In this document: positions 10,151-64,000 of the stretch, one piece after another
How the letters are laid out: each line of letters begins with the position of its first letter
How positions within the stretch are numbered: position 1 is the stretch's first letter
Source: Atherinomorus stipes
Lineage: Eukaryota > Chordata > Actinopteri > Atheriniformes > Atherinidae
Reading direction: 5' to 3'
DNA length: 64,000 bases
Assembly (NCBI GenBank): GCA_023101725.1
Contig: JALJCO010003983.1
Coordinates: 1 to 64,000 of the forward strand
Translations under genes and position numbers: made by a program
The notes under the pieces: generated by a model
Told to the model about the DNA's origin: nothing
What the model saw: the letters and a program-made list of their open reading frames with translations, nothing else
Database searches by the model: none

Positions 10151-10156
10151 TTAAGC

Positions 10157-10375
10157 CAGGACTGCCCAAGTCCAGTCCTCGAGAGCTACTATCCTGCATA
10201 TTTTGGTTGAATCCCTTCTCAAACACGGCTAAATCAAATGAATGGCTCGTTACTAGTCTCTGAAAAGCTGAATGGCATGAGAGATTTAACCATTTGATTC
10301 AGGTGTTTGTTGGAGACGGTATGCTCTTAAAATTGCTGGATAGTAGCTCTCGAGGACCAGACTTGGGCATCCCTG
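10157..10375. mobile_element. hAT-like MITE with perfect 8-bp target duplication
   Basis: The ends CAGGACTGCCCAAG and CTTGGGCATCCCTG form inverted repeats that extend through CCTCGAGAGCTACTATCC. The 8-mer CTTTAAGC occurs exactly on both sides (10149-10156 and 10376-10383). An 8-bp duplication is the hallmark of the hAT superfamily. It has no coding capacity, so it was moved by a transposase made elsewhere. Confidence 0.85.
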
Positions 10376-11816
10376 CTTTAAGCTCATCATATGCAATATA
10401 TAAGAAAAAGTACTGTCAGACAAGAAAGGTACAACAGTCTTCTTGCAAAGCTTCAAGTGCTGGTCTCCTCAGTTCCCAAATGTTTACATGCTGTTTTTTC
10501 CAGGAAAAGGAGGGCGCTATACAGTAATCAACAAGGCCTGGTTCCAACATTTTTTAGATTTTACTATTTTCATGAAATAAAATTGCACTTTAAAGCTTTA
10601 AAATGTTTTCTATGTTCTATTGTTAATAATGTATTTATTTACGAGTTTTTCAAATCATGTCTTTCTCTGTAGAGACATGGCAGAAAATTAGCAATGGCTG
10701 ATTTACACAGTATCTCATCTTTTTGGATCATGGATTGTAAATAGAACCATTGCATCACTATGTTTATTTCCTGCAAACATAGTCTTTTATACTGTACTTG
10801 TAAGTCTACTGTTACATCACCCCACTAAACTTAACAGCAGAAGCTCCTCTAGTTGCTCTACTAGGAAAAGCGTCCTGGATGCAATTTTTTTTTTTGTTTT
10901 TGTTTGTTAATCTTATGCTTTCAGTTTACTTTTCATTTCCACCACTACCACACCCTTTATTTCCTACTCATTTAGTTGCTCATTTCCTCTCTAATTTGCT
11001 CAATAAAATATTCTGCCCTGTAGCACAGCAGCATTTTATTCCTTCAGTCTGAGGAACAAATTCAGTCATAACACAAATATTTCTGGAAGCATCCAAACTA
11101 CTTCACCATCTCTGCAATCCATGCTCCCTAAACTAACTACTTCTGGAACCGATTTTTATCCAAACCATAAAGCACAATCGGTCCACAATCCTCTTGTCAT
11201 GCATGCCATACCTCTTTACTATTTCTTTTTATTTAACAGTAGCAGGCACCATTTATCACATAATGTACGCAATATTATTTGCCAGAAAATGCCATACTGC
11301 GAGAGCTGAATTTAGCTGAGTAGTTGGAGAGTGCAGATCTGTTTATTTCTTGGTTGAAGTGCTGAGAAAATTAAGATCTTTGCAGGTTAAGGGCGCTGTG
11401 ACTGATGGTGCAGTCTGGAAAGAACAGAGTCCGACTTTAAGCTGATATAACGCAGCTGTCTGACAGATTGCATTACACTGAAATGCCCAGACGGCTCACA
11501 TCAACTTTGGTTGGCCACATTTAATCAGTTGTGAAGAAAGGTGAAACACAGTTGGGATAAAGAAAAAGCTCTTTAGAAAAACAGGTCTGGGTTGATGGAT
11601 GAGTATTTATCACCCTAAAAAGAAACTCCTCCAGATGTTCAGAGTATAACACATGCCAAAATTCACATAGGTCAGCAAAAATAAACAATTATAAATACAT
11701 CTCATTTACAGTGTGGAGGCGCATTCATCCTAAAGTGTAATAGGGCAAAAAGGCAAGCTTTCACACTCACCAAAAGTGGTAGTGGTAAGCTGTTTTGGAG
11801 CTTCAATTAACCTGTA

Positions 11817-14444: not shown

Positions 14445-16795
14445 GAAAAGGCAAGGCAAGTTTATTTGTATAGCACATTTCATGTACAGAACAATTTAAA
14501 GTGCTTTACTTTAAACATTGTAAGCATTACAGTGGGGTGCAAAAGGGAAGAAAAAAATTAAGAATAAAAAATTAGAAGTATGGTTCAAAATTAAAAACAT
14601 TAAAGACATTTAAGATTAAAAAGAGAATATAGAGACGTGCGGATTTTAACTTTTAAATAAAATATATGTAAATGCAGCTGAGAACAGGTGGGTCTTCAAC
14701 CTGGATTTAGATAAACTAAGTGTTTTAGCTGATCTGAGACTCTCTGGGAGTTTTTTCCAGACATGTTGAGCATAGAAGCTGAACACAGCTTCTCCATGCC
14801 TGGTTCTGACTCTGGGAACTGATAAAAGGCCAGATCCAGATGACCTGAGGGGTCTAGTAGGTTCATACTGGGTCAAGAGGTCACTGATGTATTTTGGGCC
14901 TAAACCATTCAGAGCTTTATAGACCAACAGCAGAACTAAAGTCTATACTCTGATGGACTGGCAGCCAGTGTAAAGACCTCAGAACTGGGCTGATGTGGTC
15001 CACTTTTCTGGTCTTAGTAAGAACTCGGGCAGCAGAATTCTGAATGAGCTGCAGCTGTTTAACTGATTTTTTAGGTAAAGACGCTGCTACAGTAATCAAG
15101 CCGACTGAAGATGAATGCATGGACTAGTTTTTCCAGATTTTCCTGAGACATCAGATCTTTTATCCTTGAGATGTTCTTCAGGTGATAGTAGGCTGATTTT
15201 GTAATTGTTTTGATGTGTTTTTCGAAGTTTAGGTCTGAGTCCATTACTACACCCAGATTTCTGGCGTGATTGGTGGTTTTTAGGTGTATGGACTGAAGTT
15301 CTGTGACAACCTGCTGTCGTTTCTCCTTGGTTCCAAAAACAATCACCTCAGTTTTGTTTTTGTTCAGCTGAAGAAAGTTGAGACACATCCAGTCATTAAT
15401 CTCCTCAATACATTTACCAAGAGCCTGTACAGGGCCCTGGTCTGCTGGTGACACTGTAATATATAGCTGTGTGTCATCTGCGTAGCTATGGTAACTAATG
15501 TCGTTGTTCTTTATAACCTGGGCCAGTGGGAGCATGTAGATGTTAAACAGAAGAGGCCTCATGATAGAGCCCTGTGGAACTCCACAGGTCATTTTTGTCC
15601 GCTCAGATGTAAAATTACCTACTGACAAAAAGTACTTCCTCTTCTCCAAGTACCTTTTGAATCAGTTTAGTACAGAACTAGAGAGACCCACCCACTTCTC
15701 CAATCGTTGGAGTAATATAATGTGGTCAACTGTATCAAATGCAGCACTGAGATCCAGTATAACCAACACTGACATTTTTCCAGCATCAGTGTTCAGACAT
15801 GCATCATTCATGACTTTGGTCAGACCAGTCTCAGTGCTGTGGTGCTGTCTAGAACCTGACTGGAAGACATCATAACAGTTGTTATCTCTTAAAAAGTCAT
15901 TTAGCTGGTGAAAAACTGCTTTTTCGATGATCTTACTTAAAAATGGAAGATTGGAGATTGGCCTGTAGCTGCTCATCTATGACTTATCTAGATTATCCTT
16001 TTTTAGCAGAGGTTTGATCACAGCTATTTTCAGTGACTCTGGGAAAACACCTGACGTTAAAGAGGAGTTCACAATTTGAAGCAGATCTGACTCCAAAGTC
16101 TTTGAGATCTTTTTTAAAAAACCAGTGGGCAGGATGTCCAAACAGCAAGAGGAGGAGTTCAGTTGATGCAAGATGTCCTCCAGTTCTTTGTTAGAAATGG
16201 GATAAAACTGTGTCATGGTGTTTAGACTTGTGTGACAGTGTGGTCCTGTCACTATGCCTCCGACTGATCATGTGCCCTGGCTACTTGGCCACAGGGATGT
16301 CCCTTTGGCTGAATGGTCAGCGCTCATGGCTTTCACCCGGGAGTCTGGGGTTCAAAGCCCGCCCGGGCCCTCTGTTGCGTACCTTGCCACATTCTGGCGT
16401 TGTCGGCAGGATCCATGTGCAATGCTGGTAAACGGTCCATGGATTCATAATTGGTGGCAGCCTGCGTGGAGCACGAGGGCGTGCTTGCGAAAAGAGGGGG
16501 AGAGATGTGACAGTGTGGTCCTGTCACTATGCCTCCGACTGATCATGTGCCCTGGCTACTTGGCCACAGGGATGTCCCTTTGGCTGAATGGTCAGCGCTC
16601 ATGGCTTTCACCCGGGAGTCTGGGGTTCAAAGCCCGCCCGGGCCCTCTGTTGCGTACCTTGCCACACTTGGTAGACACAGTACAAGACCTAAACCTGCTG
16701 TTATTGAACCAACGGCTTGTCTAATTATTTGGTTTTTGTTTGTGAAGAATTTGGCAAAGTCATCATTAAAGTAATTGCTCAGCAGCAACACAGTT
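14445..16795 (-). mobile_element. L2-type LINE, broken, interrupted by the TRIM at 16231-16666
   Basis: Minus-strand reading shows a reverse-transcriptase region. It includes YRPISNLPFLSKIIEK (near 15965-15915), FQSGSRQHHSTETGL, LDLSAAFDTVDH, GVPQGS and the catalytic YADDTQLYI (near 15490-15465). A C-terminal block VYKALNGLGPKYISDLL follows near 14925-14870. The RT part is one frame but has an in-frame TAG (15977-15979) and TGA (15662-15664). Frame changes follow near 15110 and 14925, so no full protein can be made. The 3' end near 14445-14520 has the usual AAATAAACTTG tail. Sequence right of the TRIM (16667 to about 16795) continues the L2 frame (for example DDFAKFFTNK), so the LINE was split by the later insertion. 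The endonuclease part is missing. Confidence 0.85.
16231..16666. mobile_element. complete miniature LTR retrotransposon (TRIM) with tRNA-like LTRs
   Basis: Two identical 161-bp direct repeats, 16231-16391 and 16506-16666, begin TGTGACA and end TGCCACA. Between them lie 114 bases with no coding capacity. Three bases inside the left repeat is TGGCGTTGTCGGCAGGAT (16395-16412), a primer-binding-site-like stretch. It matches, with one mismatch, the complement of the 3' end of a vertebrate tRNA-Ser as I recall it. A 17-base purine run (16489-16505) abuts the right repeat. CTTG flanks both ends (16227-16230 and 16667-16670) as target duplication. Each repeat holds an A-box-like TGGCTGAATGGTCAG (16306-16320) and a B box GGTTCAAAGCC (16349-16359), as in a tRNA. 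Identical repeats mean a recent insertion. The LTR order runs left to right on the plus strand. It sits inside an L2 element. Confidence 0.85.
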
Positions 16796-20172: not shown

Positions 20173-27123
<6,951 letters not shown>

Positions 27124-29499: not shown

Positions 29500-31486
29500 A
29501 ATAGATAATATATAATTGTTTTATTTTCTGGTCATGGCTTCATTTTTGCATTTTTAGCATTTCTGAATTGATGCTCAAGTTTCTAATTTAGTAAGTAGGT
29601 AATTTAATCACCATTTTCTAATCTAATTGAATGTAACAAACATTTTTTCCCTCTGGAGCACACAGCAGTGTCATCCTGATATAAAATAACAGTGATTTAC
29701 TGAACAGCATTATTATTTCAACAACTTAAAAGAAGAGAAAACCTCTTTATAATTTATGTGGTTTCTCATATGTCAAGCAAGCATTTCATTATTCCCAGAG
29801 GAGCCAGAAACTCTAGCAAACCACACAACGTTGCCGAAAATGCTCCCCTGTTCGACTTCACATATTCTTGCTAGAAAGTTGCCAGTTCTGCAGAACTTGT
29901 GGCGTCTCACCCAGCAGTGACCACACTGTGGTGCCCGGTAGGTCAGCTGGCATTCTGAGGTCACCAAAGGGAATTTCAGCTTCCCTAATTCTTTAGTTGA
30001 TGTAGACAGAGCAGATAATCATCTACATTCCTCAGTTCCCCCTCTTCAAAGCCACAGGACCCCCAACTATCTCAACACAATTCAACACACTTAGCATTCT
30101 TAGCCAGGAGATGCTGTCTTATAATGGGCTGACATAGTTTATTTGACCTTTGAGGTCCAGAGTTAATTCTTCCGTGATGTATAAAGATCAGTTATGTTGT
30201 CAAGGAAGTCATGTGCTTTTAGCCTCGTTCAAATTCTGTTGTTGTTTTTTTTAATTGTCATAGTATGAGTCTAATAATGCTTTGGCAAAAAATACTTTAG
30301 CTTTTAAAGGAGTTTGTGTAAGTAATAACTTAATTAAAATCAATAAAATACAAAACAAAGACTACCATTAATTTTCCAAAAGGTTTACTGTTTGCTGAGT
30401 CATGGTTGTTGATGGAATTCAGCTCAGAGCAGAGAAAAATAATTTATAAAGCTTTTTGATGAATTACTGTGGCAAACAATGAATACAAAGACAAATGAGC
30501 CGGAGTATGTGGATAAGCTGACCTATTGGATAATTCAAACACAGCTTCAAACACAGCTTTGATTTTTGAAAAATAGCAATTTGATATCAAATCTCTTCTA
30601 TCATCTATAATTATCCTAGTTTATGAATCAATAACTACCTAACTGGATAGCAACAAGGACAGGAAGCCATCAGCAACTGATTATTCAGATAGCAATGATT
30701 GGACTTGTCGAGCTCCACATCAGAAGTTACCAGAAACATGAAACCAGCATGAAACCTTAATCCTGCTGGCAGAGGAAATAAGGGGAGAGAAATCTGATGC
30801 TTTAAGAGCCTCCCTGTGCCCTGATGGGATTTGGATTTTAGTGTTGCTTTATAAATCTCCAGCAGGAACCTGCAGCAGGATGGCTGCTAGTGGGAAACAC
30901 TGCTTTGAACCCTTAAATGTTTCTAAGTTAATATAAAATGAGTAAAGATTACAGAGAAAGGTTAATGTGCACCACAAAGGCTAGTCAAAGCTGAAAACTT
31001 GTTTCTACATATCAATCTATATAATTTCCCTGCCACATTTCTATTAATCGTTACTCTTGATCTGTTTGAATAAACACACCATTCATAGGGGGAAAGCAAA
31101 CTATGTAGTATGATGCAAAACTTTGGTGGTTTTGTTGCTCATCTTTCCCCTTTTTGCAATCATTCTCTCTCAGCTTTGTATATATTTGCAGATATAAACC
31201 TAGAACTTTTTAATCACACCATCCTGTTTTTCCTTTCTTTTCTAAATTTAAATGTAACTGTTACATGAATAATAGCTGAAGATCACAAAGATACACTTAA
31301 TATTTGTGACATAAAGGGTAAAGAAGGACATTATGTCGCAATTCTTTTTTCTTAAACAGAATAAGATGAGAGCCATCCATCCTGTAGTCCCTGTAGTTTC
31401 ACATACATTTTTCTGTATCCTCTTGTTTCACTTCTGTGTTGAAGTGAGACTCGGGACTTGAAAATATTGTAGGTGATCTGAGCATG

Positions 31487-31645
31487 TGTGGCAAGGTACC
31501 CAACAGAGGGCTGGGGTGGAATTTGATCCCCAGACTCCCAGGTGAGTCGTGCATGCTAACCATTCAGCCAAAGGATCATCCCTGTGGTCAAGTAGCCAGG
31601 GTGCATGATCAACCGGAGGCATAGTGACAGGACCCCACTGTTACA
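31487..31645 (-). mobile_element. solo LTR of the same tRNA-like TRIM family
   Basis: On the minus strand this 159-bp unit begins TGTAACAGTGGGG and ends CCTTGCCACA. It aligns end to end with the LTRs at 16231-16666, with clear divergence. CATG flanks both sides (31483-31486 and 31646-31649) as a 4-bp target duplication. No internal region or second LTR is next to it, as expected after LTR-LTR recombination. The A-box-like part is kept; the B box is degraded to GGATCAAATTCC. Confidence 0.8.
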
Positions 31646-32593
31646 CATGGTTTTGAAAATGTTTCCCACAAAATTAATCCAATGCATGGTTTTAAATGTC
31701 TTGTCTACAAATCTATTTTTTCGAGACTGTAGAGAAAAGAAAATCTATAAAATCGATGTGAATGCTGTCGTGACCCAAAGTTGGAGAGTTGTGTGATGCT
31801 GTAATACTATACATCACAGAGTTTATCTACTGGATAGATTAAATAAGTTTGCAGATGTGCATGCAATGCAAAACCAGCCATTTAGAGAAATTGATAAACT
31901 GCAAATCTTTTTTGTGTTTTGTATATTTTATGATGACTGATTTTGTTGGTAATAGTCTGTTTTTCTTCAGGTTTAAATACAGTTTAAAATTTTTATCAGC
32001 AGAGAGTCACCGGATCAAAACATCAGAAAAAGTTGAGTTTATTTAAAGTATTTGAAAAAATGGTTTGAGATTTAAAGATTATAATCTTTAAGGCAATGGA
32101 GACCAAAGCTAAAACTGTAGTTCCTCTTTTCCTTCACTGCTGTGAGTTATTTGTGTGCCACATGTGAAATTGCTTAGTTTACACTTTAACAAACAGCACA
32201 CAAGCCAATAAATCTTGTAAATGCTCTCAAAGGTGCAGATATTAACGATTCTCTTCATCTGTAAGTTCATCACAGGAGTAAGAATTTGGCTTCTACTTCA
32301 CCATTTTAACATTTGCATCACATGATCTACATTGAGTCTCTATAAACGCTGCCTATGTTTCAGAAAATAGTACAGGAAAGAATGAAGGGGATTTTGTTTC
32401 TTTGTTTCCAAATATTTGCCCGCTTTTTTTTTTTTCTTTTTTCCTTTTTTTTTTGTTTATTAATCCAGTCCCTCCCACAGCTGGGTTTAAAGGGAGACTG
32501 TGACCTCCTGACCGGGCCAGTCGCTGCTTATTTCACTGCATCCTGATTCTCTGACATGTATGTTGGATGGGGGGAAGGGCATAAAGAGGAAGA

Positions 32594-33177: not shown

Positions 33178-36100
33178 ATGATCTTTGCAAACACAGGCAA
33201 CCCGCTGAAGACAGCCAATCGTAAACAGGTAGGCCAAAATAAAACCACAGAAAACACACGTATCCTGTATTTTCTGCCTACTTTTTCTCCCCCTCACACT
33301 TGAATAAGCCGGGTGAATAATAGCCGCACATGACATTGGAAAGCCCTCTCTGGCTATCATGTACGGAACGTACCCATACATTCACACATCTTTTTTTTCC
33401 TCCTAAATCCCAAATTAATTAAATTCCTTACTAATTGGATCCTCTGATCTCAGCAGTTGTCAAGCAGATGCTCTAAATCGGCTACGTGTAGAGGTAAAAC
33501 AGCAGCTGGTTGAATCTATAGCTTTACAACCGATACTTAAATGATTATGTCCATATAACCTTGTTTGCTCAGTCACTGGCCAATTGTGGTCAATATGTAT
33601 GACGAAAGCTGTGGTCCATTTTTATAGGTTAATGCATTCTGGGTGAATCCAGAATGGTTACAAGGAGGGCTGTAATGTACTAATGGAAGGTACAGTATGT
33701 CAGTGTGCTGCTTGCATTTTTCATTTTGACCTCTCAGGTGAGCAAAGCGATAATTGGTAGGCATCACACCTTTTGATTTAGGTGGGAGATGGGAATAAAA
33801 GAAGAATGCACAAAGAGAAGAAAGGCAGCACTCATTTTAACCTTAGATCAAGCCGTCAAGTGCGATCTGTGAGATCAAGTGAATTGAGGGGTTTAGTTAA
33901 CTATATATGAAACCAGCCTGGTGTGAATCCCTGCAGAGGAAAATGAGGTTTTAGTCTTAATCAGCTGAAACATCCCCTTTAAAGAGATGCAGACCCTTTG
34001 ATTGTCCCTACAAGAAAAATTATGTCACAAAATGTATTTGCACATGACAGATGTTTCTGCTCCAGCCATCAATTCTTCATCTGAGCAAAGGAAAATAACT
34101 CTTTAACATTCAACATCACATGACCGGCGAGGAAGCTGAGTGTTTTGTTTTATTGGCGTGGATATCTTTGGCTCTTGAAGTGGATCGTCCTTTGGTTATG
34201 GACAGATGGTGTGATTCTGCCATGTTCTGCCTTTGATCTGATCTGGAGAGGGTTTGGGGTGGCTGGGAGCGATTTTAATGAATGAGTAAGGGGAAGGAAA
34301 TGCTTTGCGGGGCAGAGTGGAATGGCTTGGCTCACCAGTATGAAGAACACTGCAGGTTTTCTATAAACACCACAGCAGGATGTACAACATGAACACAGAA
34401 TTAATTATTCTTTGGTCATACAAGAATGCGCATTTGTAAATGTGATCTTTGTTATGTAGTTGGACAGGATCTTCTTTTTACAACAGTTTGGAGCTCACAG
34501 TCAAATCGACCTACCTCCGAAAATCCAGACAGAGGGAGAAAAAAAAAGTATTTTGCTTAAATAGAAGTGGGGATATTATTGAAAGAATGAGACTACATTG
34601 CCACCATCTAAATGTAATGGGGTGAAATGTGCCATATTTCCAGCTGAAGTGATGAAGTCATCTAAAAGTGTCTTTCACATGCACGTATGTCACCGATATT
34701 ATACCACTGAACCTTTATCTTGTCCAAGTGTTGTTACACAGAATATAACTGGCTTCAATGTGTATTAGCAGTATTAGATAGCAATATAGCAGTTTGATAT
34801 AGCTCAAGATAGTCTGTTTTTCCATTTCACACAGATGAGATGTTCTTGTGATTACTGTTGACTTGGGTTTAAATTAGATTATCTAGGTCCCATACACCTC
34901 CTAACAGTGGGTTTCCTGTGTGCAGTCTTACCCCATGACTCCGTCCAGTCCCAGCAGCAGCAGCAACAGCAGCAGCACAGGCCTGGAGCAGCTCAGCAAA
35001 ACTAACCTTTACATCCGTGGCCTGCCTCCTGCTACTACAGATTTGGATCTGGTTAAACTCTGTCACCAGTGAGTACCGATACACAGACAGTATGAACATC
35101 CATAGTCATATCTGTATGCATCAGCTTTGATGTTGGTTGAAACACGGGTCAAAGACATCATATTTTCAATGCCTTTCAAGTCTTTGGTGATGGTCGCTTT
35201 CTGTGAGCAGGCAAGAAGTGTGCAAACCCGCAGGTATACACTTGCTGTGAAATTTTGAAATTTGAATTAAACACAGTTATTTCTAATTAGAAATACAGAA
35301 ATGTTTCATTCATACAAGAGTCACAGGGCATATCATTATATAGAATCTAGACATGCAAATTGAAACACCATAGGACTTTCTCTTAGGCATGCAAATAATT
35401 TATGGATGATTATATAAAAAATATACACTCTTCTTTTAGAACAGTTTCTACTAGAGTTCTAGAGTTGATTTGCATTCTCACCTCCACAAATTAACCAGCA
35501 GAGGCAAAAGTAAACTGGTAGGTCCTGTGATGGATGGATGGATGGATGGATGGATGGATGGATGGATGGATGGATGGATGGATATTTTTGCGGCCAGCCT
35601 TACATTGCTAAGGTTTCAAGTTCTTCTTCCTGCTTTCTAAACTGAAAACATGCCAAACAAACATAAGCTCTTGTTGGTAATTTAGGAATGCGAGTTATTT
35701 CTTGTTAGGGCTGTCCCAATCCCACTTTTTCACTTCTGATACCAATACCAATACCACAGGTCAAGTATCATCCAATGCCCAAAATAGGTACTTACACTAG
35801 CTGTATTTTGGGCCGAAGATTATGCATATTGATCAAATAATTGATTTAAATCTTGGTTTATGTTAGGTATGTTTGTTTTGTGGAGCATCACCTCTAAAAA
35901 CTGTGGTTTAGCAGGTTAATGAAATAAGTTCATAACAATAAGTATGAGGAAACACTGACCTATTTCTTATGTACAAATAGGTTTGATGACTTTTAAACTC
36001 ACAAACATAACAAATAAAATAGTTTAAAATAAATTAAACTAGGGATGTAACGACATGAAAACTTCATATTACGGTTATTGTGACCAAAATGATCACAGTT

Positions 36101-39100
36101 ATCATTTTTATCACGGTATTATAGAAATACCCCTCAGCATCTTTGAAAATATCCAAAATGGGTCTAAATGTCTACTTTGTCCTTTTTAAAAGGGGGAAAA
36201 ATCTCAAGAGTGCCTTTGTTGCCTTCTGCCATGTTTTCATAGATTAAACACTGCAAACTGCGACTGCTGCTGCTTTTCCAGCCAATGAGCAGCATTGCTG
36301 GGAGTTTTTCAAAGTGCAGTAATCACTCACAGTTTTAACGATGATCAAATTTTGAAACGGTGTTAATAATCTTTGGTAATTTTATCACGGTTAACCATTT
36401 TACCGGTAATTGTTACATCCCTAATTAAGACCCAGTCAGGAAGAAGTGCTTGAAAGAAAAGCTGGAATGGATTTCCTGGATCGGTGCGACTCAATCGGCA
36501 TTCCGATCCGATCTGATACACTGTTTTTAACCAATATCGGCCTGATAGCCAATACTGGTATTGGATCCGGATAGCCCTAAAGGTTGCACTGTCTTTGGTT
36601 ACAAAGGTATTCCAGTGGAAGTAAATTGAAGATGAAATGGAATAACAAAGTACAAACCTATGGTAGTGGCATGCCCTGAAGCATGGTGTGTGGAAGGTTT
36701 TAGTGGCTAAACCACAGATGGAATCCCAATACAGTTTCACTTCAAAGAAACTGAGGTGATATGAAGGTGAGATAGTGGTGTCAGCAGGTCCCACAGTGCT
36801 TTGCTTCTCCATTTTATATACTAGCACCATAAAAGCAGCAGTAGATACTCAATCACTCTTGTAATCCCAACTCCAATAGCCTGTTTGCTTTGGGTCAAAA
36901 ACATCATCATAAATTTGTCATCAACTCTAAATGTGTGTGTGTGTGTCTGTGTGAAAGAATACGAAATGAGAAGATGTTGCTAGGAGATAGTTAGCTTAGC
37001 TTGTCCTAAAGGCAACATAGCTAACGTCTGTAAAACCAAAATATATTGGTTTTACATTGCAGTTTCTGCATTGCTTTTAACTGTGCTTTAAACATAGATT
37101 GTATAAAAAATAACATTATTACATTGTTTGCCCTGGGCAGACTGGCGGCCTGGCCGGGGGGGGCCCCCCCCTCCCCGGGAAAAAAGGGGGGGGGTGGTGG
37201 GAAGTGACGACTGACTGACTTTTGTTTTTTTTTTCTATTGGTATCATAGGCAGGCACCGATTCTGAAAATCAAGCTAGTACATAACTGCCTAAAATTGCA
37301 GAGCTGCATAAGCTCATTGCTAGAGAGCTATAACATCTGAATTAGTTGTCCTTTAAAAAAAAATCATCCCCCAAGTGTTTTCGATCAGTCATTCTTAAAA
37401 AAATCATGCATCAGTTCTGTTACTTTGTCCAAATGTGGTAACTTTTTGTGCAAAAAAACAGATTAAGATGGGAAAAGGCCACTTGAGACTGAAAACTAAT
37501 TCCTCAAAACGGTGGATAATTTCCCACTGCTTACATTGACTTCTTAAAGAGAATAAGAGTATATGACATGAGACTGGTTTTGTTGTCTTTGGAAAGGCTA
37601 ACAGTTTCCCCCTGTTTTGAACATTGGTGCTAACTTAAGCTAAGCTAACCAGGTGCAGGTGGTAGCTTAGATATCTCTATCTCCTGACAAGAAAACATTC
37701 AATTATTATGGGTTTCAGCAAGATTTTCTGCAAAAGAATCAAATTAGTTTCTGATTTATATTTCCCATGGATGAGAAGAGATTTTGGGAGAAAATGTACG
37801 AAATAAATAGCATTTAAAACGGGGGCTTAAATAAATCAAACTGAAACTTGACAGAGGAAAACAAAAGTAGGCTACAGACTCTCCTCTGTTTTAGTGCAGA
37901 AACATGGCTGTTGGAATTTAAGAAATGCTCTCTGGCTCAACCAAAGTGTACACTGAGACATGAAATGCTCAAACCACCATACCTCTATAAACACACACAC
38001 ATGGAAAAGCAATAGCTCAACTTCACTACATGTAGTGGGCTGTAAAAATGATTGTTTTCTGGAAAGAAGAAAGCAGTCATGCAAAGTAGTCCACTGTTTG
38101 ATATAAGTTACAAGCTTAAATCCGGGTGGTTAGTGTGGTGGATACCATAATTAGAGGAGGGTTTTTTTTTCTGCCCTTTAAATCAGAGCCATATTGGAAG
38201 ATGAGGCATTCACCCATATAACCAACAGCAGCAGGAGCTGTTTGTGTCCTGTTTGCTTGTGTTTTGTTCATGTTCCCGGTGGTGTTTGCCAGCACAAAGC
38301 AGAAATGAAAGCGCTTTTCATAGCAACAAGGTCTGAATGGTGATGTAAGCTAGGCATTCAGTCTGTATGTGCTATGTGTCCAGAGAGCAAGTCACATTTT
38401 GTGTCACATTTCAGCTTCATTGTAGTCACTGATAAAACAAAGCCTCAAGTATTAAAGTTGGATTCATATTATTTGCAAACGTATAGGGCAGAGTAGATGT
38501 GTCCCTGCAAGTACTAATATTCATGAATATAGCCAACCATGTATTGCTTTTTTTAAATTGCTTTTTGCTTTTGTGTCTGAGCTCACAGTGATGATGAACA
38601 AAGGTCCTCGCTTTACAAATTCTCCTTCAAATGGATACCCATAAATCTAATTGACCACAACCACAGCGCGTCCTGTTTTCAATTAGTTATTAATGATAGT
38701 AATCTGCATTTTGTTGTGCACTCAGGTATGGAAAGATTCAGTCTGCAAAGGCAATTCTGGATAAGACAACCAACAAGTGTAAAGGTGAGTAAAGCCATCA
38801 ACTCATTGTAGTAGTTGTCATTTTTCACAGTTATACTGAAAATAAATTAAATGTAGCTTTGAATTAAGTACAGAGAATCATCTCATTTGTGTTTTAGTTT
38901 GACACTTGAAATTTTCTGTGATGTGTAACTCCATTGATTTCCCTAAATAAAACATGTTGAATTTCAAGACCTTTCAGGCAGCTTCCATTTTTCTATTCTT
39001 TTCCACAGTGAATGGAAATCAATTTGTAGTGACGTGGCACCTGCTTGAGTTGATAATCCACCATTGTGAATGTTACTGGCAAACGTGCCCATTTCTATTT

Positions 39101-39709: not shown

Positions 39710-42700
39710 ATATGATAAATGAGCCTATAGGTGCTGGTACACAAATCTTTTGAACAACTGACTCAGTCAAAGTTGACTCCAGCGCACAGGTGAGAATATA
39801 ATCTAACCCTTTGAAAGGAGGTTAAAAGGCTGATTGGGGACATATTCCCATAGATAATTAATAATTATTAAATGTTTGGCTTTTGAACAGAATAGCATAA
39901 AATGATGTAAAGATGACTTTAAATTAATATTTTGTTTGCATAAATATAAATTGATAGAAAAATATTAGATATAATTAATTCTGCAATTACAGTAGAAACA
40001 CATGTTTTAAAGGTGGTGGTTTGTTTGTTTTTTTAATTTTATTTTACCAGCTGCTGATATTAATATTGCTCTACAAACGACAGGTTATGGTTTTGTGGAC
40101 TTCGACAGCCCAGCAGCTGCTTTAAAGGCGGTACATGCTCTAAAAACCAGTGGCATACAGGCCCAGATGGCCAAGGTGAGTTTGTTACAGGCACGTGCAT
40201 ATGTCTGCGTGTCTGTGTGTGCATGTTTGCCATGCCTGTGAATATCTCTTTGGAGCCATGCTTTTTTTGTACATGCATACTTGTGTCCGGTGTGTGTTGG
40301 AGAATGACATTAGACTGGTCACATGTCCTCAGCTGACAAGCTGTTCCTCCCGTGACCTCATTTACTTTCACTGTAGAAACCAGATGTCACCTTTTTCTCT
40401 GCCAAATTTCCTGTCAATCACTATGACGCGTTACACGCGCTAACCGGTCTATTCTCTAACACACCATTCTGGTTGAGTTGCATGATTGTGCAGAAGTTGC
40501 CAGCATACAGATTATGTATATTTACATAGGGATGTCTGCACCTAAGCACGATTTGAGTAACACTACAGCAGTAGGCCTTTCAGGAGTTACATCATTTTTT
40601 ATCTTGATCTTGATCTATGAATAAATAAAGATTAAGCACTGCACAATAAAATAATATATATATATATTTAAATGACAAGCAAGATTTCTCTCTATTATGT
40701 TCTTCCCAGCTGTGTTGCTGTGCTTAAATGAGAGAGAGAGTCCACTGATGAATGGTTGCTCAGTGGAGACCTGCATGTTGCTGCTCTGTTTGGAACAAAC
40801 ATGACAGAGCACAGTTTGTGTGTAGTGGTAGCTATAGCTACGCTGCTCTCCTGCTGTTTCTAAGGGAGACCGTAAAGGCACTGAGCTGCTGCACAGTGCA
40901 AATGAAGTGTGTTTCAGTGTGTGAGGTTTTGTGCCTGTGCAAGAAATCTTATGACTGTTTATTTAACCAAATGTTAGTCTGGCTCAACTTCATGGAGGAA
41001 GACAAAGGCATCATGTCAGACTTTAATGAAGTGAAGAAATTTTGCTGGAATTCTTTCTTTTTTTTTTTTTTTTTTTTACATTCATTCACTTCCATCTCCT
41101 TTTCTGTGAGCAGCAACAGGAGCAGGACCCCACAAATCTTTACATTTCCAACTTGCCTCTCTCTGTGGATGAGAAAGAGTTGGAGAAGATGCTGCAGTCC
41201 TTCGGCCAGGTGGTCTCCACTCGAATCCTCCGAGATTACAGCGGTAACAGCCGAGGAGTGGGCTTTGCCAGGTTTGTCTCAGGAGAGAAGACAGTGCATT
41301 TGTTTCTTTTCTGCTAAATCGCCTTTAAAGTAGTTGAAGAATAAACCTTTGGCAAATCTGTTGTTGCCAGTAATTCTTCTTTTGCTTAACAAAGGCAGTG
41401 TATAGCTACACAGTTTATACTAAAAGTAATATTGGTAGCAATGGTACTGATGTGGTATATTTCTGATATTATAACACAATAAACACAGGCGCTTGACTTC
41501 TCTGCAGTTCAGACAAACAGCATCTCATTCCACTCAGACTTCATAAATTGAGTTTCATCTGCCTTGTTGTCTTTGTGGGGATTGATTCTGTTTTCACAGC
41601 ACTGGCAGAAACTTTGTAAAAACTAAATTAGATCAGCACACACAAGAAACACTGAGCCTGTGTTTATATTTATAGAAAATTCTGTGTTTATGCTAAAATC
41701 TTGAGCCACCCCTCATTCCTTCACTGTTTGCTTCTAAGAAAACAGTTTCTTGAATTTTTTTAAAGTGATCTTGTACCATAGTTCTCCAGATTTTTGAAGG
41801 TATTTTTTTTGTAGGTATTCTGTGAACATTGGCTTCTTTTTTATTCATTTTTAGTTCAGTCTTTCTACCTCTTCATTTAGAGGAATGTATTTATTGTTTA
41901 AGCCACATAACACTGATGTATGACTCATTCAAGAATTTTAAAAAATACATTGTTTAAAAACTAAACCAGTGTTGTGCAAACAAATAAGAGTCCACTTAGA
42001 AAAGGTCCAATTTCAAGTTGCATATTGAGGCACTTTGTTACTGGCAGCCTGCTGCAAAAACTTTTGTTCTCATATTCTTAGTTGCATCTGGGAACAAGGT
42101 TCAAAAGTAAAAGTAAAAAAAAGACAAGCCTGTAATGCCATTCTTGCTTCAATAAGGTGATTCCCAACAAGCTACTGGTCACAAACATGGCATATACAGT
42201 ATTCTAATACACAAAACTGGACATAGATCTCCAACCGATTCCTGATGCTCTTAAAGAATAGTGAAAACAAAAACAGTAAAGGCCTGACACAGGGCCTTGA
42301 GAAATGCACCTGGGCCTTCAGCTAATCCATAACTATTCACTATACTGTTATACCCTCACCCAAAATTCAGAAATGGTCTCCATAGACGGATGGCTATCAA
42401 GCCATTCATTAAGAAGGGAAACAGGGAGAAAAGGCTTAAGTACCAAATATTACAAGAACTGGTTAGAAAATTTGTGAACCTAAGTCTTATTGTCAACATT
42501 ATTGAAGCAGTGTAGGGTCGTCTTGATGGAGAACAGAACAAAAGACAGCCTACATCTAAAGAAAAGCTTTGGGAGGTCCTTTAAAAAACCTAGAGAAATA
42601 TTCCCCAGGACTACTTAAAGGTACAGTATGTAAGAATTACTGACATCTAGTGGTAAAGATGGGTATTTGAAAGAAAAGATGTTTTCTTTCAATTTTTATT

Positions 42701-49124: not shown

Positions 49125-49948
49125 AATGGGATGCACGATATTGGAATTTTGGTCGATATTTGATATGCCGGTATTTTAAAACTCATGTGGCCGATGACCG
49201 ATATCAATACCGATATTAAGGCTGAAAAATAAATAATGTAATTTTCATTCCTTGTGCAAAATTTGAAAAATACCTTAACTTGTGTTATGTATAACAAGTC
49301 AAACTTGATAATAGTTGCTCAAAGAAAACTAAAAGGATATGTGTGTTATATAAGAACCACCTGGATTTTCTTCTCCCTGAGAAAAAAAAACAATACCCAA
49401 AAACAGGGGATACTTGGTAGGGGTGGGGAAAAATATGGATACACTGAAATATTGCAATATTTTCATATGTTGATATCATATCGACATTTAAAAATGCGGT
49501 ATTGGTCTATTTTACAAACGAAATCTCGCAAGATTTTGTCGTTCTGTTATGAAATCTCACGGGTTTTCGTGAAATCTTCCGGGATTTCGTAAGAGAACGA
49601 TGAAATGTCGCGAGATTTTGTAGGTAAAATAGATCAATATTGTGTTTTCAAATATCAATATGAAATCTGCATATGAAAATATTGCGATATTTCAGTGTAT
49701 CCATATTTTTTCCCAGCCCTAATATTTGGTTATTTACACAAATGACCGTGTATAAACTCTGTTTGCACAGAACATCCTAACAGAAACTGTCTTTAGAAGT
49801 TTTAAAGTCTAAAAAAAGAAGTTTTTGTTTTTTTTAGACTTTAGAAACAGATCGTTTAAATATCAGTGGGGTGTCCGATGTCCGATACTCAGTTTTAAGG
49901 CCGATATAGGCCGATACTGATGGGGGCCGATTATATAGTGCGTCCCTA
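49125..49948. mobile_element. outer hAT-like element split by a foldback MITE, in rbms1 3' UTR intron
   Basis: The left end GGGATGCACGATATTGG (from about 49128) and the right end GGCCGATACTGATGGGGGCC...GTGCGTCCCTA (to 49948) are inverted, with repeated CGATAT units. The element is interrupted at 49418-49721. The outer target duplication is not clear. Confidence 0.55.
49418..49721. mobile_element. full-length palindromic hAT-like MITE
   Basis: The two ends, TAGGGGTGGGGAAAAATATG and, inverted, TAGGGCTGGGAAAAAATATG, match over about 50 bases. Pairing continues inwards, as both halves carry CTATTTTAC and TCGTTCT phrases, so the whole 304 bp folds back on itself. Flanks are ATACTTGG (49410-49417) and ATATTTGG (49722-49729), an 8-bp duplication with one change. 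Confidence 0.8.
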
Positions 49949-58739: not shown

Positions 58740-61700
58740 ATGGGACTTATACTGCTGAGCCTGATTCTCCGGTACTGGATCAACACCGTGGAGGGTAAGC
58801 GGGAATTTTGTCCGGTTTGAAACATTAAAGGGCAACACTTTTGTCAGGTGCAAACAAAGAGAAACAGGAGCTAAAGAATTAATCAATGTCTAAGACAACG
58901 TGTGAAGGAAATTTCCATATCTAGCTGTTTTCAGGATGGAAGCCTCCTTGGACTTTGTCTTAATGATTAGAATATTTTTTTTTACATGTTTTTAAAATTA
59001 ATCACGTCCAACGGGGTCCAGACGCTTAAACCATGTTAAAAGTAACAACGTTTGCCTGGAAAGACCTGAATTTGTAAGAAAATTGTGGTGGATTTTAACA
59101 AGTTCACTATAACTGTGTAGTACGTTTATGTGTGCTGCAGGATCATGTTCACCTGGCAGCGCTGTGACTTGTGATGAGTGTCTGCAGCTCAGTCCTTATT
59201 GTGCCTGGTGCACACAGGAGGTAAACAGGCACATTTGCATGTACAAAAACACTGTATGTAAATGAACATATTTATTCATTTATTTGATTTATCTAGTAGT
59301 CTAACAACAGCAACAACTGGCACATGATTGGATGTGGATGCAGGACTGTTTTATGGCATGCTACAAAATCCATCTCAGTTGTTACCCTGTAAACAGCACT
59401 ATGTCTGACTTTGTCCTTCATGTCTCAGAATTTTACAGACTGGTTGTCAGTCTCTGAAAGGTGTGACACACTGGATAGCTTGTTAGAAAAAGGATGTGCC
59501 AGGGGCCATGTCGAGTTCCCCGTTTCTAAAGGCCATATTATCCAGGATCGCCCACTTGGGAAGAAGACAAGCACCACAAACAGCACTCAAATCTCTCCAC
59601 AAAAAATGTCCCTCAAGCTGCGACCTGGTATGCAGTTCATGCTGTTTAGAATTGATGAGCTGACTCCAGAAGTGGTTCTTTGTTTGTGAGAGAAAAATAA
59701 AGCGTTGACTTTGTTTTTGCACAGGCAGTGAGGTGACTTTCCAGGTTAAAGTGCAACACACAGAGGATTATCCTGTGGACATCTACTACCTGATGGACTT
59801 GTCAGCATCCATGGACGATGATCTGGAGATGATCAAAGACTTGGGCTCCTCTCTGTCTAAAGAGATGGCCAACCTTACCAGTAAATTTCGCATGGGCTTT
59901 GGCTCTTTTGTGGAGAAACCTGTCCTTCCTTTCATCAAGATCACGGAGAAACATCTGAAGAACCCCTGCAGGTACACAGTATCATGACCAGAGGACTCAA
60001 CACCATCCTGAGAGAACTCTGAACAATATAACATGGCTCCTCAGGTTTCAAACCCGTCTTTAACATTTCTGATGTGTTACAGGGATGCAGACGACACTTG
60101 TCAGCCAACATTTGGCTATAAACATGTCTTGTCTTTGACAAGCAAAACCGACAGGTTCAACGAGATTATCGCAGAGCAGCGTATATCCGCAAACGTGGAT
60201 GAGTTGGAGTGTGGCTTTGATGCTGTCATGCAAGCAGCTGTTTGTGGGGTAAGATTTTACATGTAAAATTGTTCTAAAGTGGTTTAATTAGTTTGTGAAT
60301 CTGTCACATTCATTTGTTTTATTTGATTAGTCAGTGTAGTTATGTCTGTCTTATAGGACAAAATAGGATGGAGGAATGATTCAATGCGTCTCCTGGTGTT
60401 TGTCAGTGACGGTGACTCGCACTTTGGGATGGATAGTAAATTGGCAGGAATTGTGATTCCTAATGATGGGCAGTGTCACCTGGATGTCAACAATGAATAC
60501 TTCATGTCCACAGCGCTGGTAAACCCTCACACTGGTAGCGAAAGCAAGCCGACCCATCAAGGTCATTGATAAGTTGTCAATTTAAGCAAAACTTGTTTCT
60601 ATCTGCACCAAAGTTCAAATAAATCCTTTCTTTGTCAGTGCTTTAACTTGTCACTTAGTATCACAAATATCAGCTTAGTGGTTTTTGTGACACCCTTAAA
60701 TTGGCTCCAGAACGAGTCTGGGTGCTGAGACTGAGCCAGATCTTAATTACAAAATCAGCGGGCGACATAAGTGGTTCCAAGTTGGTCCAAATGTAGATAG
60801 AAGTGTCAATTCTCAGCTCAAATGAGCTCAACCCCACACCCAAACTTCAGAGCCAGAGGTGGCTCATTTTTTTGATGAGCTGCTGCCAAAACAAGCCAAG
60901 TAGGCTAAAACTTAGCCTCAACAGGCCCGATTCAGCTGTCTGTCTGAACACAGTTAGAAGCTAAGCAGTGATGTCTATCTCAGGGTATGTGTTCACCTTT
61001 ATTCTCTTTTTTCAGGAGTATCCTACTCTTGGTCAGCTAATTGACAAAGTGGTGGAGAACAACATCCTGCTTATTTTTGCTGTGACAGAAAAGCAAATAA
61101 ACAACTATAAGGTAAAATAAATCTCTCTTGTCTAGAGTCTATCTAAAGCAGAAAAATTCAAATCCTTCGTGCAGCTGACATGTTGATCTGTTGAGCTTCA
61201 TTCTCATTCAGCCTGTTAGAACTGGCCCATTTTTTCCTTTGCCTTTTCAATTCTTTTTTCTTTATCGTTATTTGCTTTTGGGACTGTGAGGCTACCCACA
61301 TTTGTAATGACAAGATAACTGTTTATCTGTTTTGTTTTTCTCCCAGAACTATGCAAACCTCATACCTGGCGCCACAGTTGGAGTCCTGGCAACAGATTCA
61401 CGGAATATCTTGGAACTGATTGTGACAGCGTACAAAGTAAATAAACACTCTTGATAATCTGGATGTGGATTGATAAAGAAATAAGCTAGAAAACATCTGC
61501 CTGTCATAAAAGCAACAAAAGCTGTTGTCTCATAGGTTATTTGTCAAACTCTGTTGAACCTGAGCCCCAGAAAAATGTTAAAAAGGAGCAGGTATTAGTT
61601 AATCTTCTGCACATCATCGTTTTTCGATGACAGCCAACAGCCTTCTCTTGCTTTTCCTCTTTCATTCCTTCCTCTATTACATTTTTGCCTCTTCCACCCA

Positions 61701-62753
61701 GTGCTTTGCATCAGCTTGTTTGACAGCAAGTTTCTGCTTGTCCTGGCTGTTTGATCTCCCACCCCTCTGACTTGCTCTTTCTTCCCCTCTCTCTCTCTCT
61801 CTCTCTCTCTCTACTGCATGCCCGCTTTGCCATTTTGTAAATCCCCCCTGGCGGCAGTGACTGGTGCTGGTGGTGGTGCACAGTCCTCTAATTACTTCGT
61901 CAGTTGCATCATTTACACCCATGTTAACCACACCAGGAGAGGAGTCCCTGTCATCACACTGGTTGTAGATTTACTGCTTTAAAAAAGAAAATAAAATACA
62001 AACGGAGGGATATTTTCAGATAGTGAACTGATAAGTATTCATACTTACCTAAAATTTCAGATCCCCCTTTGACGTCTTGTGGATAGCTACCTCAGCCACG
62101 TTTAAATACCCTACAATGCATTTACTGAATGCCAATGCAGTCTCTTGAATCTGTTTTACAGTCTTGGGTGTATCCCATAAATGTCCCAGTTTTCTCCTCC
62201 ATAGCAACACTGAAGACACAGTACAAATGCAGACCTACAGGAAATTAACCCCCTGTTAGCACCCAGACGGTCTGTCACAAAGAGCATTCGTCATTCAAAA
62301 GCTGTTCTTTCTCCAGCTGAGGTTTGCTGTCATTCTTTACTCAGGTGCTTTGAGTAACCAAGCACACCTGGGATGATGACTCATCTAAAAGGCTGAATTA
62401 GACGGGAGGTTTCAAAGAAGTTAGCATATCACAGGTCACTGTTGGGTGAAAGCATAATTACACCCCCAGTCCTGGAAATCCCACCTCATGATCACAAAAG
62501 TGTCTGTGTTACCATGGTTTAGAAGTTGGGGTATTTTATAGAGAAGAACTTTCTGCTCGGTATATATTTCTTTTCCATACATGCTGTTGTAATGTACAGT
62601 TCATGAACTGTTTTCCAGGAGCTGCGTTCAGAGATTGAGCTTGAAGCCCTTGGAGACACAGAAGAGCTGCAGATGTCCTTCACAACCATTTGTCCCAATG
62701 GGACTGTCTTTCCTGATTTAAAATTGTGCTCCAACATCAAACCAGGAGAGACG
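58740..62753 (+). CDS. itgb6: integrin beta-6-like subunit, N-terminal part (gene continues past window)
   Basis: Cell-surface beta chain that pairs with an alpha chain (alpha-V in mammals) to bind RGD ligands such as fibronectin and latent TGF-beta. Nine coding exons are seen: 58740-58794, 59141-59220, 59429-59627, 59725-59971, 60083-60248, 60357-60518, 61016-61111, 61347-61436 and 62619-62753, giving 410 residues. Residues 1-19 form a short hydrophobic signal peptide. A Cys-rich PSI domain starts near residue 20 ([14 protein letters not shown]). The beta-I domain holds the MIDAS motif DLSASMDDD (D136, S138, S140), [33 protein letters not shown] and LIPGATVG. The specificity loop between C193 and C200 is interrupted by an intron. 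The hybrid domain begins with [20 protein letters not shown], transmembrane and tail exons must lie beyond 64000. Synteny with rbms1 and the loop residues favour itgb6 over itgb3, itgb5 or itgb8. Confidence 0.92.
61785..61812. repeat. (CT)n microsatellite in itgb6 intron 8
   Basis: About 13 CT units in the intron between the exons at 61347-61436 and 62619-62753. Confidence 0.95.
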
Positions 62754-64000
62754 GTCAGTCGATTCTGCTTCAAATAGCTCCTCCCCTGCTGTTGTTTGTC
62801 GTTAATCTTTCAAACAGGCTGGTGCATTTCAACTTGCTGTAGAAACAAATTCTAAAAAACAAATGTGGATAACTAAACCAAAGCAGCTGTAGCGCAAAAT
62901 TGAAAGATGAATTATGAAAGATAGAATAAGCTGAGTTTACAGCTTTTGTATGTTTGATAAACAGGTTATTCCAAGATCTCAAACCATAAAAGCTAAAACT
63001 GCTTTACCAGATCAAGTAAAAGGTTCAGATTGCAATGCATGGGAATAAGAAGTGAAACAACAGAATGTGGAGTCAATATACACAATTATTGACTTATTTT
63101 GGATTAGAAAACCGTTTTAATGGAGTCAAACCAGAAACCTTGATCATACAACATGTGGTTATATTGCTACTCAACAAGATCTCTACCTGTCACCTGTTTT
63201 CATTTTGTCCAGGGCTGAAAAATGGAGTAAAAAGTCAGTCACTGATAAAAAATTTAAAAAAAAAACCCTGCCACCAACTTTTTTATTGGAATTAGTCTTA
63301 TTTCTGCCTTTGTCTCAGCAGCAGCACTTTAAGTCCACATCATGTTTATGGGTTGTCTAGATCAGTGGTTCTCAATCCTTTTGATCCATGACCCCAAAGA
63401 TAACATACATCGGTGTTCGCACGTATGGAGGCGGGACCCCTAGTTTGGGAAGAGACATTCCAGACCGTACTCATGGACGTAGTAGCTCATTAATGATGTG
63501 GCTAATTTGCTTTGAATGTTTTACTAACTTTCATTTTGACTTAAAGAAAATCTGATTATAATTTGTTGGTCAATCCGAAACTTTAGAGTCTGAACTATAT
63601 TTTCAATACTGTATTATTATCTTTATATTACATATTATTTGACGCTAAACACCATGTTCATTTTTCTTAATGTTTTGGATGCAAAATGAGCAATTTTCAG
63701 TCACCCTTGCTTAAGAGATTTCAGACTGGATGGATTCAGACTGGACTGAATATTTGCTTGTATAGCAACCGAAGAAATTTAGGCAAGAAAGACTTTTAAA
63801 TTTAAAAGGTGTCCACATTTGGCCTTTTATTTATTTTATTCCTTTTTTATGTAATTTATTTTATTAATTTATTTTCTTTTATTCATTCTTATCCCACACT
63901 ATTTTTCATTTGTTAGTTATCTTTATTTATTAATTATTAATCTATTTCTTATTAGTTATTTGCCTCAGCCTTTGCTTTCTTTTTTCTTAACTTTCTTTTT
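62754..64000 (+). other. itgb6: itgb6 intron, next exon not reached
   Basis: The donor GTCAGT follows the exon ending at 62753. No sequence resembling the next hybrid-domain exon appears before the window ends. The last 250 bases are T/A-rich low complexity. Confidence 0.55.
63364..63520 (+). repeat. hAT-like element end (CAGTGGTTCTCAA type)
   Basis: CAGTGGTTCTCAATCCTTTT followed by GATCCATGACCCC is the classic end of Charlie-like hAT elements. The other end was not found within the window. It lies in the itgb6 intron after the ninth coding exon. Confidence 0.45.

Follow-up and report, generated by a model that had tools for sequence, protein, structure and literature searches.

Is the 436-bp unit at 16231-16666 an LTR retrotransposon whose repeats carry a tRNA-like Pol III promoter, or is it a pair of SINEs that mimics one? 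The original prediction had favored the former, in the form of a recent miniature element, and our analysis of the window (the whole 64-kb stretch of DNA from which the unit was described) supports that reading. We address the unit's structure and mode of insertion, the promoter-like sequence in its repeats, its relation to known elements, and the way in which it might be copied.

Structure and insertion of the 436-bp unit

The unit consists of two 161-bp LTRs (16231-16391 and 16506-16666) with 114 bp between them. The LTRs are 100% identical and have TG..CA ends (TGTG...CACA), a PBS-like stretch (TGGCGTTGTCGGCAGGAT) begins 3 bases inside the 5′ LTR boundary, and the target-site duplication CTTG on both flanks matches over exactly 4 bp. 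The length and identity of the LTRs, the 114-bp inside, the PBS-like stretch, the 17-base purine tract before the right LTR, and CTTG on both flanks had been predicted and were confirmed. In terms of a TRIM, the unit is shorter than 1000 bp in total (436), has two LTRs and a 114-bp inside without protein genes, places a PBS after the 5′ LTR and a PPT before the 3′ LTR, and is a clean insertion with a target duplication of fixed length (4 bp at two of two sites, counting the second insertion described below). The probability of a chance 4-mer flank match is 0.0058 per site, or about 3.3e-5 for both sites. A protein search with a 162-aa chance frame running through the element returned 15 candidates, none at E values up to 1. 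Purine runs as long as the 17-nt PPT occur 18 times on the plus strand and 21 times on the minus strand of the 64-kb window; we thus gave little weight to the length of the tract alone. We additionally observed that each LTR opens, just within its end, with a short hairpin, GTGACAG/CTGTCAC (16232-16238/16246-16252), one left-arm base of which is different in the solo copy.

Table 1. Positions of the element, its signals, its host frame, and the second insertion in the window.
Feature	Position	Strand	Remarks
Host LINE frame left of the insertion, reverse transcriptase with in-frame stops	15071..16230	-	PF00078 in 15071-15661 and 15662-15976
Target-site duplication CTTG, left	16227..16230	.	exactly 4 bp
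5′ LTR, 161 bp, TGTG...CACA	16231..16391	+	100% identity with 3′ LTR
Box A, 5′ LTR, TGGCTGAATGG	16306..16316	+	0 mismatches to TRGYNNARNGG
Box B, 5′ LTR, GGTTCAAAGCC	16349..16359	+	0 mismatches to GGTTCRANNCC
Internal region, 114 bp	16392..16505	+	of insufficient length for a retrotransposon protein domain
Primer-binding site (PBS)	16395..16412	+	complementary to tRNA-Ser-AGA 3′ end, 17/18 bases
Polypurine tract (PPT), 17 nt, GAAAAGAGGGGGAGAGA	16489..16505	+	adjoins 3′ LTR
3′ LTR, 161 bp	16506..16666	+	identical to 5′ LTR
Box A, 3′ LTR	16581..16591	+	exact motif match
Box B, 3′ LTR	16624..16634	+	exact motif match
Target-site duplication CTTG, right	16667..16670	.	exactly 4 bp
Host LINE frame, continuation right of the insertion	16667..16765 (far end approximate)	-	same frame
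CATG duplication, 3′ side of solo LTR	31483..31486	.	4 bp
Solo LTR, same or sister family, 159 bp	31487..31645	-	84.5% identity over the full LTR
CATG duplication, 5′ side of solo LTR	31646..31649	.	4 bp

The unit interrupts a LINE, and when the 436 bp and one CTTG were omitted, the LINE frame read across the junction without a break. Using the joined frame as a protein query, we found 6531 relatives at E values up to 0.001 among 7979 scored candidates. Both the best match, P0001 (named Maylandia zebra; 88 of 117 residues identical), and P0002 (Oryzias melastigma; 77 of 117) aligned across the junction in frame. Compared with the window frame, P0001 has two additional residues exactly at the junction, and P0002 has two additional residues a few residues away. 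We set aside the two-residue shortfall against P0001 because this stretch is variable: of the best 120 of the 6531 relatives, 94 gave a match and 60 spanned the junction, and the window frame was gapped there against 37 of those 60. Because the frame is continuous without the insert and the 4-bp duplication is exact, the unit most likely entered the LINE as one piece.

The same search bears on the host. Among the best 120 of the 6531 LINE relatives, all named sequences with at least 77% identity came from Maylandia, Oryzias melastigma, Oreochromis, or Pundamilia; other percomorph relatives were much lower (down to 44–67%), and named cyprinid relatives were at 49–64%. Judging from this one LINE, the host appears to be a percomorph.

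The two LTRs differ at 0 of 161 sites, which gives an upper bound on their divergence of about 1.9% (rule of three). With an assumed substitution rate of 5e-9 to 1e-8 per site per year, this bound would place the insertion less than roughly 1–2 million years ago, barring gene conversion.

Searching the window with the LTR gave a third match (31487-31645, minus strand), the only other copy found there. Its boundaries coincide with the exact LTR ends, it contains none of the 114-bp inside, it lacks a tail, and it is flanked by its own CATG duplication, all of which make it the product expected of LTR–LTR recombination. Relative to the young LTR, this solo copy has 23 substitutions (16 transitions and 7 transversions) and one 2-base gap, and the resulting Kimura distance (K2P 0.164) suggests that the family, or sister families, inserted at well-separated times. 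The family-level evidence consists of these two insertions within one 64-kb window.

With both insertions in hand, we considered whether a SINE dimer, or a local tandem duplication of a SINE, could mimic a pair of LTRs. A single repeat does have boxes A and B arranged as in the head of a SINE, and the original prediction had itself named SINE-type copies with tails and a tandem SINE duplication as readings that would displace it. Within the window, the only other copy found proved to be a tailless solo LTR flanked by a 4-bp duplication, and the LINE is continuous once the unit is taken out. A SINE would be a single unit with a tail, duplications of variable length, and no LTR signals, and neither of the two insertions fits this description: TG..CA ends and 4-bp duplications are found at both sites, the solo copy keeps the LTR ends and has neither tail nor internal segment, and the PBS and PPT are positioned as in LTR elements. 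A tRNA-SINE-like unit in the same window (~26630-26890, minus strand), by comparison, carries an AT-rich simple tail and lacks ends of this kind. Given the solo LTR, the 4-bp duplications, and the continuity of the LINE without the unit, we rejected a dimer or tandem SINE as highly improbable, and conclude that 16231-16666 is almost certainly an LTR retrotransposon.

Boxes A and B and the tRNA-like part of the LTRs

To score the internal promoter motifs, we used consensus forms that we take to be TRGYNNARNGG for box A and GGTTCRANNCC for box B. Each LTR had been predicted to contain both boxes 28 bases apart; the boxes are present and exact, whereas the spacing between the 11-nt motifs is 32 bases, a value that depends on the motif ends chosen. 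The sequence TTTCACC, predicted to lie where a tRNA has its anticodon loop, is found at 16331-16337. Two exact boxes 30–80 bases apart were seen in 0 of 20,000 LTR shuffles that preserved dinucleotide counts (both strands read), and allowing up to one mismatch in each box gave 148 occurrences in 40,000 shuffled LTR strands. With both strands of the 64-kb window read, the combination of an exact box A with a box B of at most one mismatch at 30–80 bases is confined to the two LTRs. The decaying solo LTR retains an exact box A; two mismatches are present in its box B, which reads GGATC where the Helenus box B has GGTTC.

We then aligned the region to 22 human tRNAs, a set from which some isotypes and isoacceptors are absent. 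The LTR region scored 57.5, compared with maxima of 43 for 500 mononucleotide shuffles and 39.5 for 300 random pieces of the window. The best isotypes were Asn-GTT (57.5) and, second, Glu-TTC (50.5). For the solo LTR, Asp-GTC gave the best score, 44.5, only slightly more than the 43 reached by shuffles. The proposed likeness to tRNA-Glu was not borne out; with Asn ahead of Glu for the young LTR and Asp best for the solo LTR, the isotype cannot be named.

The margin of 57.5 over 43, obtained with this set of 22 tRNAs, argues for tRNA-derived sequence in the LTRs, as in the Helenus elements discussed below; against it stands the Rfam result, with no match in 16200-16700 even at an E value of 10 (and so neither tRNA nor 5S rRNA). 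ARAGORN found no tRNA anywhere in the 64-kb window, and the predicted fold of the tRNA-like region was no better than that of its own shuffles (z 0.63). This part of the LTR resembles a tRNA-derived promoter rather than a working tRNA gene.

Signals that would end or start a transcript were sparse. On the plus strand of the element we found no TTTT (the Pol III terminator), no AATAAA or ATTAAA, and no TATAA, and the solo LTR likewise contains none of these; the first TTTT lies 67 bases beyond the 3′ LTR. Because TTTT was also absent from 1385 of 2000 shuffles of the LTR plus inside, its absence is predicted by the composition of the element, and we rejected it as a sign of selection and do not use it as evidence. 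In the AT-richer window, 6 of 146 pieces of 436 bp were free of TTTT.

These observations bear on a second reading, in which the unit is a TRIM and its tRNA-like part is a passive relic of a captured SINE or tRNA, with Pol II transcribing from some other signal in the LTR. The lack of an internal Pol III terminator, the lack of tRNA structure by Rfam, ARAGORN, and folding, and the two mismatches in box B of the solo copy all speak for a relic. A relic does not readily account for two boxes that are exact in the young copy, for the conservation of boxes A and B that is described across Helenus families (PMC10886601), or for the lack of TATAA, AATAAA, and ATTAAA on the plus strand of the element and in the solo LTR. 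We regard the relic as doubtful, and lean toward a Pol III promoter that is actively used by the element.

Relation to Helenus and the probable primer

The original prediction had named Cassandra of plants as the only well-known parallel and had expected a vertebrate case to be unusual. Neither point is supported: Helenus is the same kind of element and is reported in zebrafish, carp, sturgeon, coelacanth, and others (PMC10886601). As described there by Kojima in 2024, Helenus (TRIMp3) comprises TRIMs of 311–1263 bp that have tRNA-like sequence in their LTRs together with a PBS and a PPT (PMC10886601). Their listed chordate hosts are coelacanth, sterlet, paddlefish, several Cypriniformes, a catfish, and milkfish; boxes A and B are conserved across families; animal Helenus make 4-bp duplications; and the primers in vertebrates are His, Leu, and Lys, with Ser given for bivalves only (PMC10886601). 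Pol III transcription of Helenus is left unproven in the same account (PMC10886601). Our search of open-licence papers found no description of this kind besides that of Helenus in PMC10886601.

The unit resembles Helenus, a group that includes LTR-11_DR of zebrafish and relatives, in the following features. At 436 bp, it falls within the size range of 311–1263, and both LTRs have tRNA-like sequence with a box A containing TRGCY and YGG (TGGCTGAATGG) and a box B containing GGTTC (GGTTCAAAGCC), in company with a PBS and a PPT. Solo LTRs occur, the tRNA-like part is unlikely to be a working tRNA, and the duplications (CTTG and CATG) are of 4 bp, as in the animal elements described (PMC10886601). 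The differences, relative to the same published description, are that the PBS fits tRNA-Ser and not the His, Leu, or Lys of vertebrate Helenus, and that the host looks percomorph and is not a coelacanth, a sturgeon or paddlefish, or a member of the Ostariophysi (PMC10886601).

Other systems are more distant. Cassandra is likewise a TRIM whose LTRs contain Pol III promoter sequence, but this sequence is derived from 5S rRNA and is not tRNA-like, the elements are 565–860 bp long, and transcription is described as terminating within the 5S part of the 3′ LTR (PMC10886601), whereas the element here has no TTTT. Ajax, of nemerteans, shares the plan of a TRIM with a captured small-RNA promoter, but it is 5S rRNA-derived, makes 5-bp duplications, and uses a tRNA-Leu primer. 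The 5S rRNA sequence that marks the LTRs of Cassandra and Ajax gave no Rfam match in 16200-16700 at E values up to 10. A tRNA-derived SINE (SINE2) has a similar tRNA-like box A/B head, but has no LTRs, PBS, PPT, or fixed 4-bp duplication, and is moved by LINE machinery. We conclude that the kind is already known (Helenus, 2024) and that this element is a further example and not a new kind. The family is possibly new, set apart from the published descriptions of Helenus by its tRNA-Ser primer and percomorph-looking host, and it may already be catalogued in Repbase.

The primer assignment comes from comparing the PBS with the 3′ ends (plus CCA) of the 22 human tRNAs: Ser-AGA matched at 17 of 18 bases and the next best at 12 of 18. 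The 3′ end in question (ATCCTGCCGACTACGCCA) appears among tabulated tRNA fragments (PMC12025293) and lies within TCGAATCCTGCCGACTACGCCA, which is given as a tRF-3 (PMC7330628), the tRNA being named at neither of these places. In a paper on rhinoceros serum, TCGAATCCTGCCGACTACGC is given under a microRNA name (PMC8716540). A 5′ fragment, GTAGTCGTGGCCGAGTGG..., the first seven bases of which pair with CGACTAC, is labelled tRNA-Ser-AGA (PMC6165373), although one table lists the same fragment under an Ala name, in conflict with that label (PMC11551137).

Proposed replication cycle and further observations in the window

Taken together, the unit is very probably a non-autonomous Helenus-type TRIM, and it would depend on Pol III, a tRNA-Ser primer, and a partner acting in trans. 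In the cycle that we propose, Pol III would be recruited by the tRNA-like boxes A and B of the 5′ LTR and would start roughly 12–18 bases upstream of box A, and the transcript would extend through the internal region and the 3′ LTR to a T-run beyond. A tRNA-Ser-AGA annealed at the PBS would prime the minus strand; the first strand would then transfer by way of the repeated sequence, which could yield complete LTRs even if the RNA extends into the flank; and the purine tract would prime the plus strand. Reverse transcriptase and integrase would be provided in trans, by analogy from a Ty3/Gypsy element, with the partner integrase making the 4-bp duplication. We propose a Ty3/Gypsy partner because of the 4-bp duplications and because of Kojima's animal Helenus. 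LTR–LTR recombination would later leave solo LTRs.

A variant of this origin is that the unit descends by internal deletion from an autonomous LTR element with a tRNA-like LTR, the parent itself having been promoted by Pol III. Some TRIMs do arise in this manner (PMC10886601, Figure 1 legend). We found no such relative within the 64-kb window, and Kojima argues that the processivity of Pol III makes sharing of an LTR with an autonomous element unlikely (PMC10886601); we therefore consider such a descent improbable. Returning to a Helenus-type TRIM supplied in trans, a more specific version would be an independent and recently active percomorph lineage, primed by tRNA-Ser, served by a Gypsy partner that also uses tRNA-Ser, and with an RNA 3′ end set by flanking host DNA and the LTR restored during strand transfer. 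That the 3′ end would be set by the flank follows from the absence of both kinds of 3′-end signal, a Pol III terminator and a poly(A) signal, from the LTR. We offer this version tentatively, as a speculation on how the pieces may fit.

If confirmed, the element would add another branch of fishes to the hosts of Pol III-promoter TRIMs, and tRNA-Ser to the primers used in vertebrates. Its young copy, with identical LTRs and no terminator, is suited to testing Pol III as the maker of the template RNA of an LTR element. For annotation, a lone LTR of such an element could be filed as the head of a SINE.

Pattern searches of public contig collections gave few matches. The LTR patterns hit 0 and 1 stretches in two scans of viral contigs and 1 among genome contigs (a Clostridiales MAG), the PBS pattern hit 8 stretches among viral contigs, and a tRNA-Ser pattern hit none. 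In the ten collection loci that we compared, the best similarity ended at 18–19 bases, and we thus read these matches as chance.

The window contains several other features. The tRNA-SINE-like unit at 26630-26890 (minus strand) has a box A with one mismatch, an exact box B, a GAGCAAGGTCCTTAACCCCC-type body, and its AT-rich simple tail. A Tc1/mariner-type transposon at 22656-24270 (minus strand) has inverted repeats of ~215 bp that are 86% alike and broken transposase frames with DDE_3 and Sleeping Beauty-type HTH domains. Two self-palindromic stretches, 49418-49721 (80% alike its own reverse complement) and 10151-10381 (70%), are possibly hairpin-type non-autonomous DNA transposons, and an 87-bp repeat pair (25330-25416 and 36040-36126) lies in opposite orientation with its copies 86% alike. 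Finally, an exon at 41030-41317 has RBMS1 as its best match, an exon at 59709-59987 has integrin beta-6 as its best match among solved structures, and visual inspection of the ORF list suggested further integrin-like exons within 59113-62777; the RBMS1-like and integrin beta-6-like exons fit a vertebrate chromosome.
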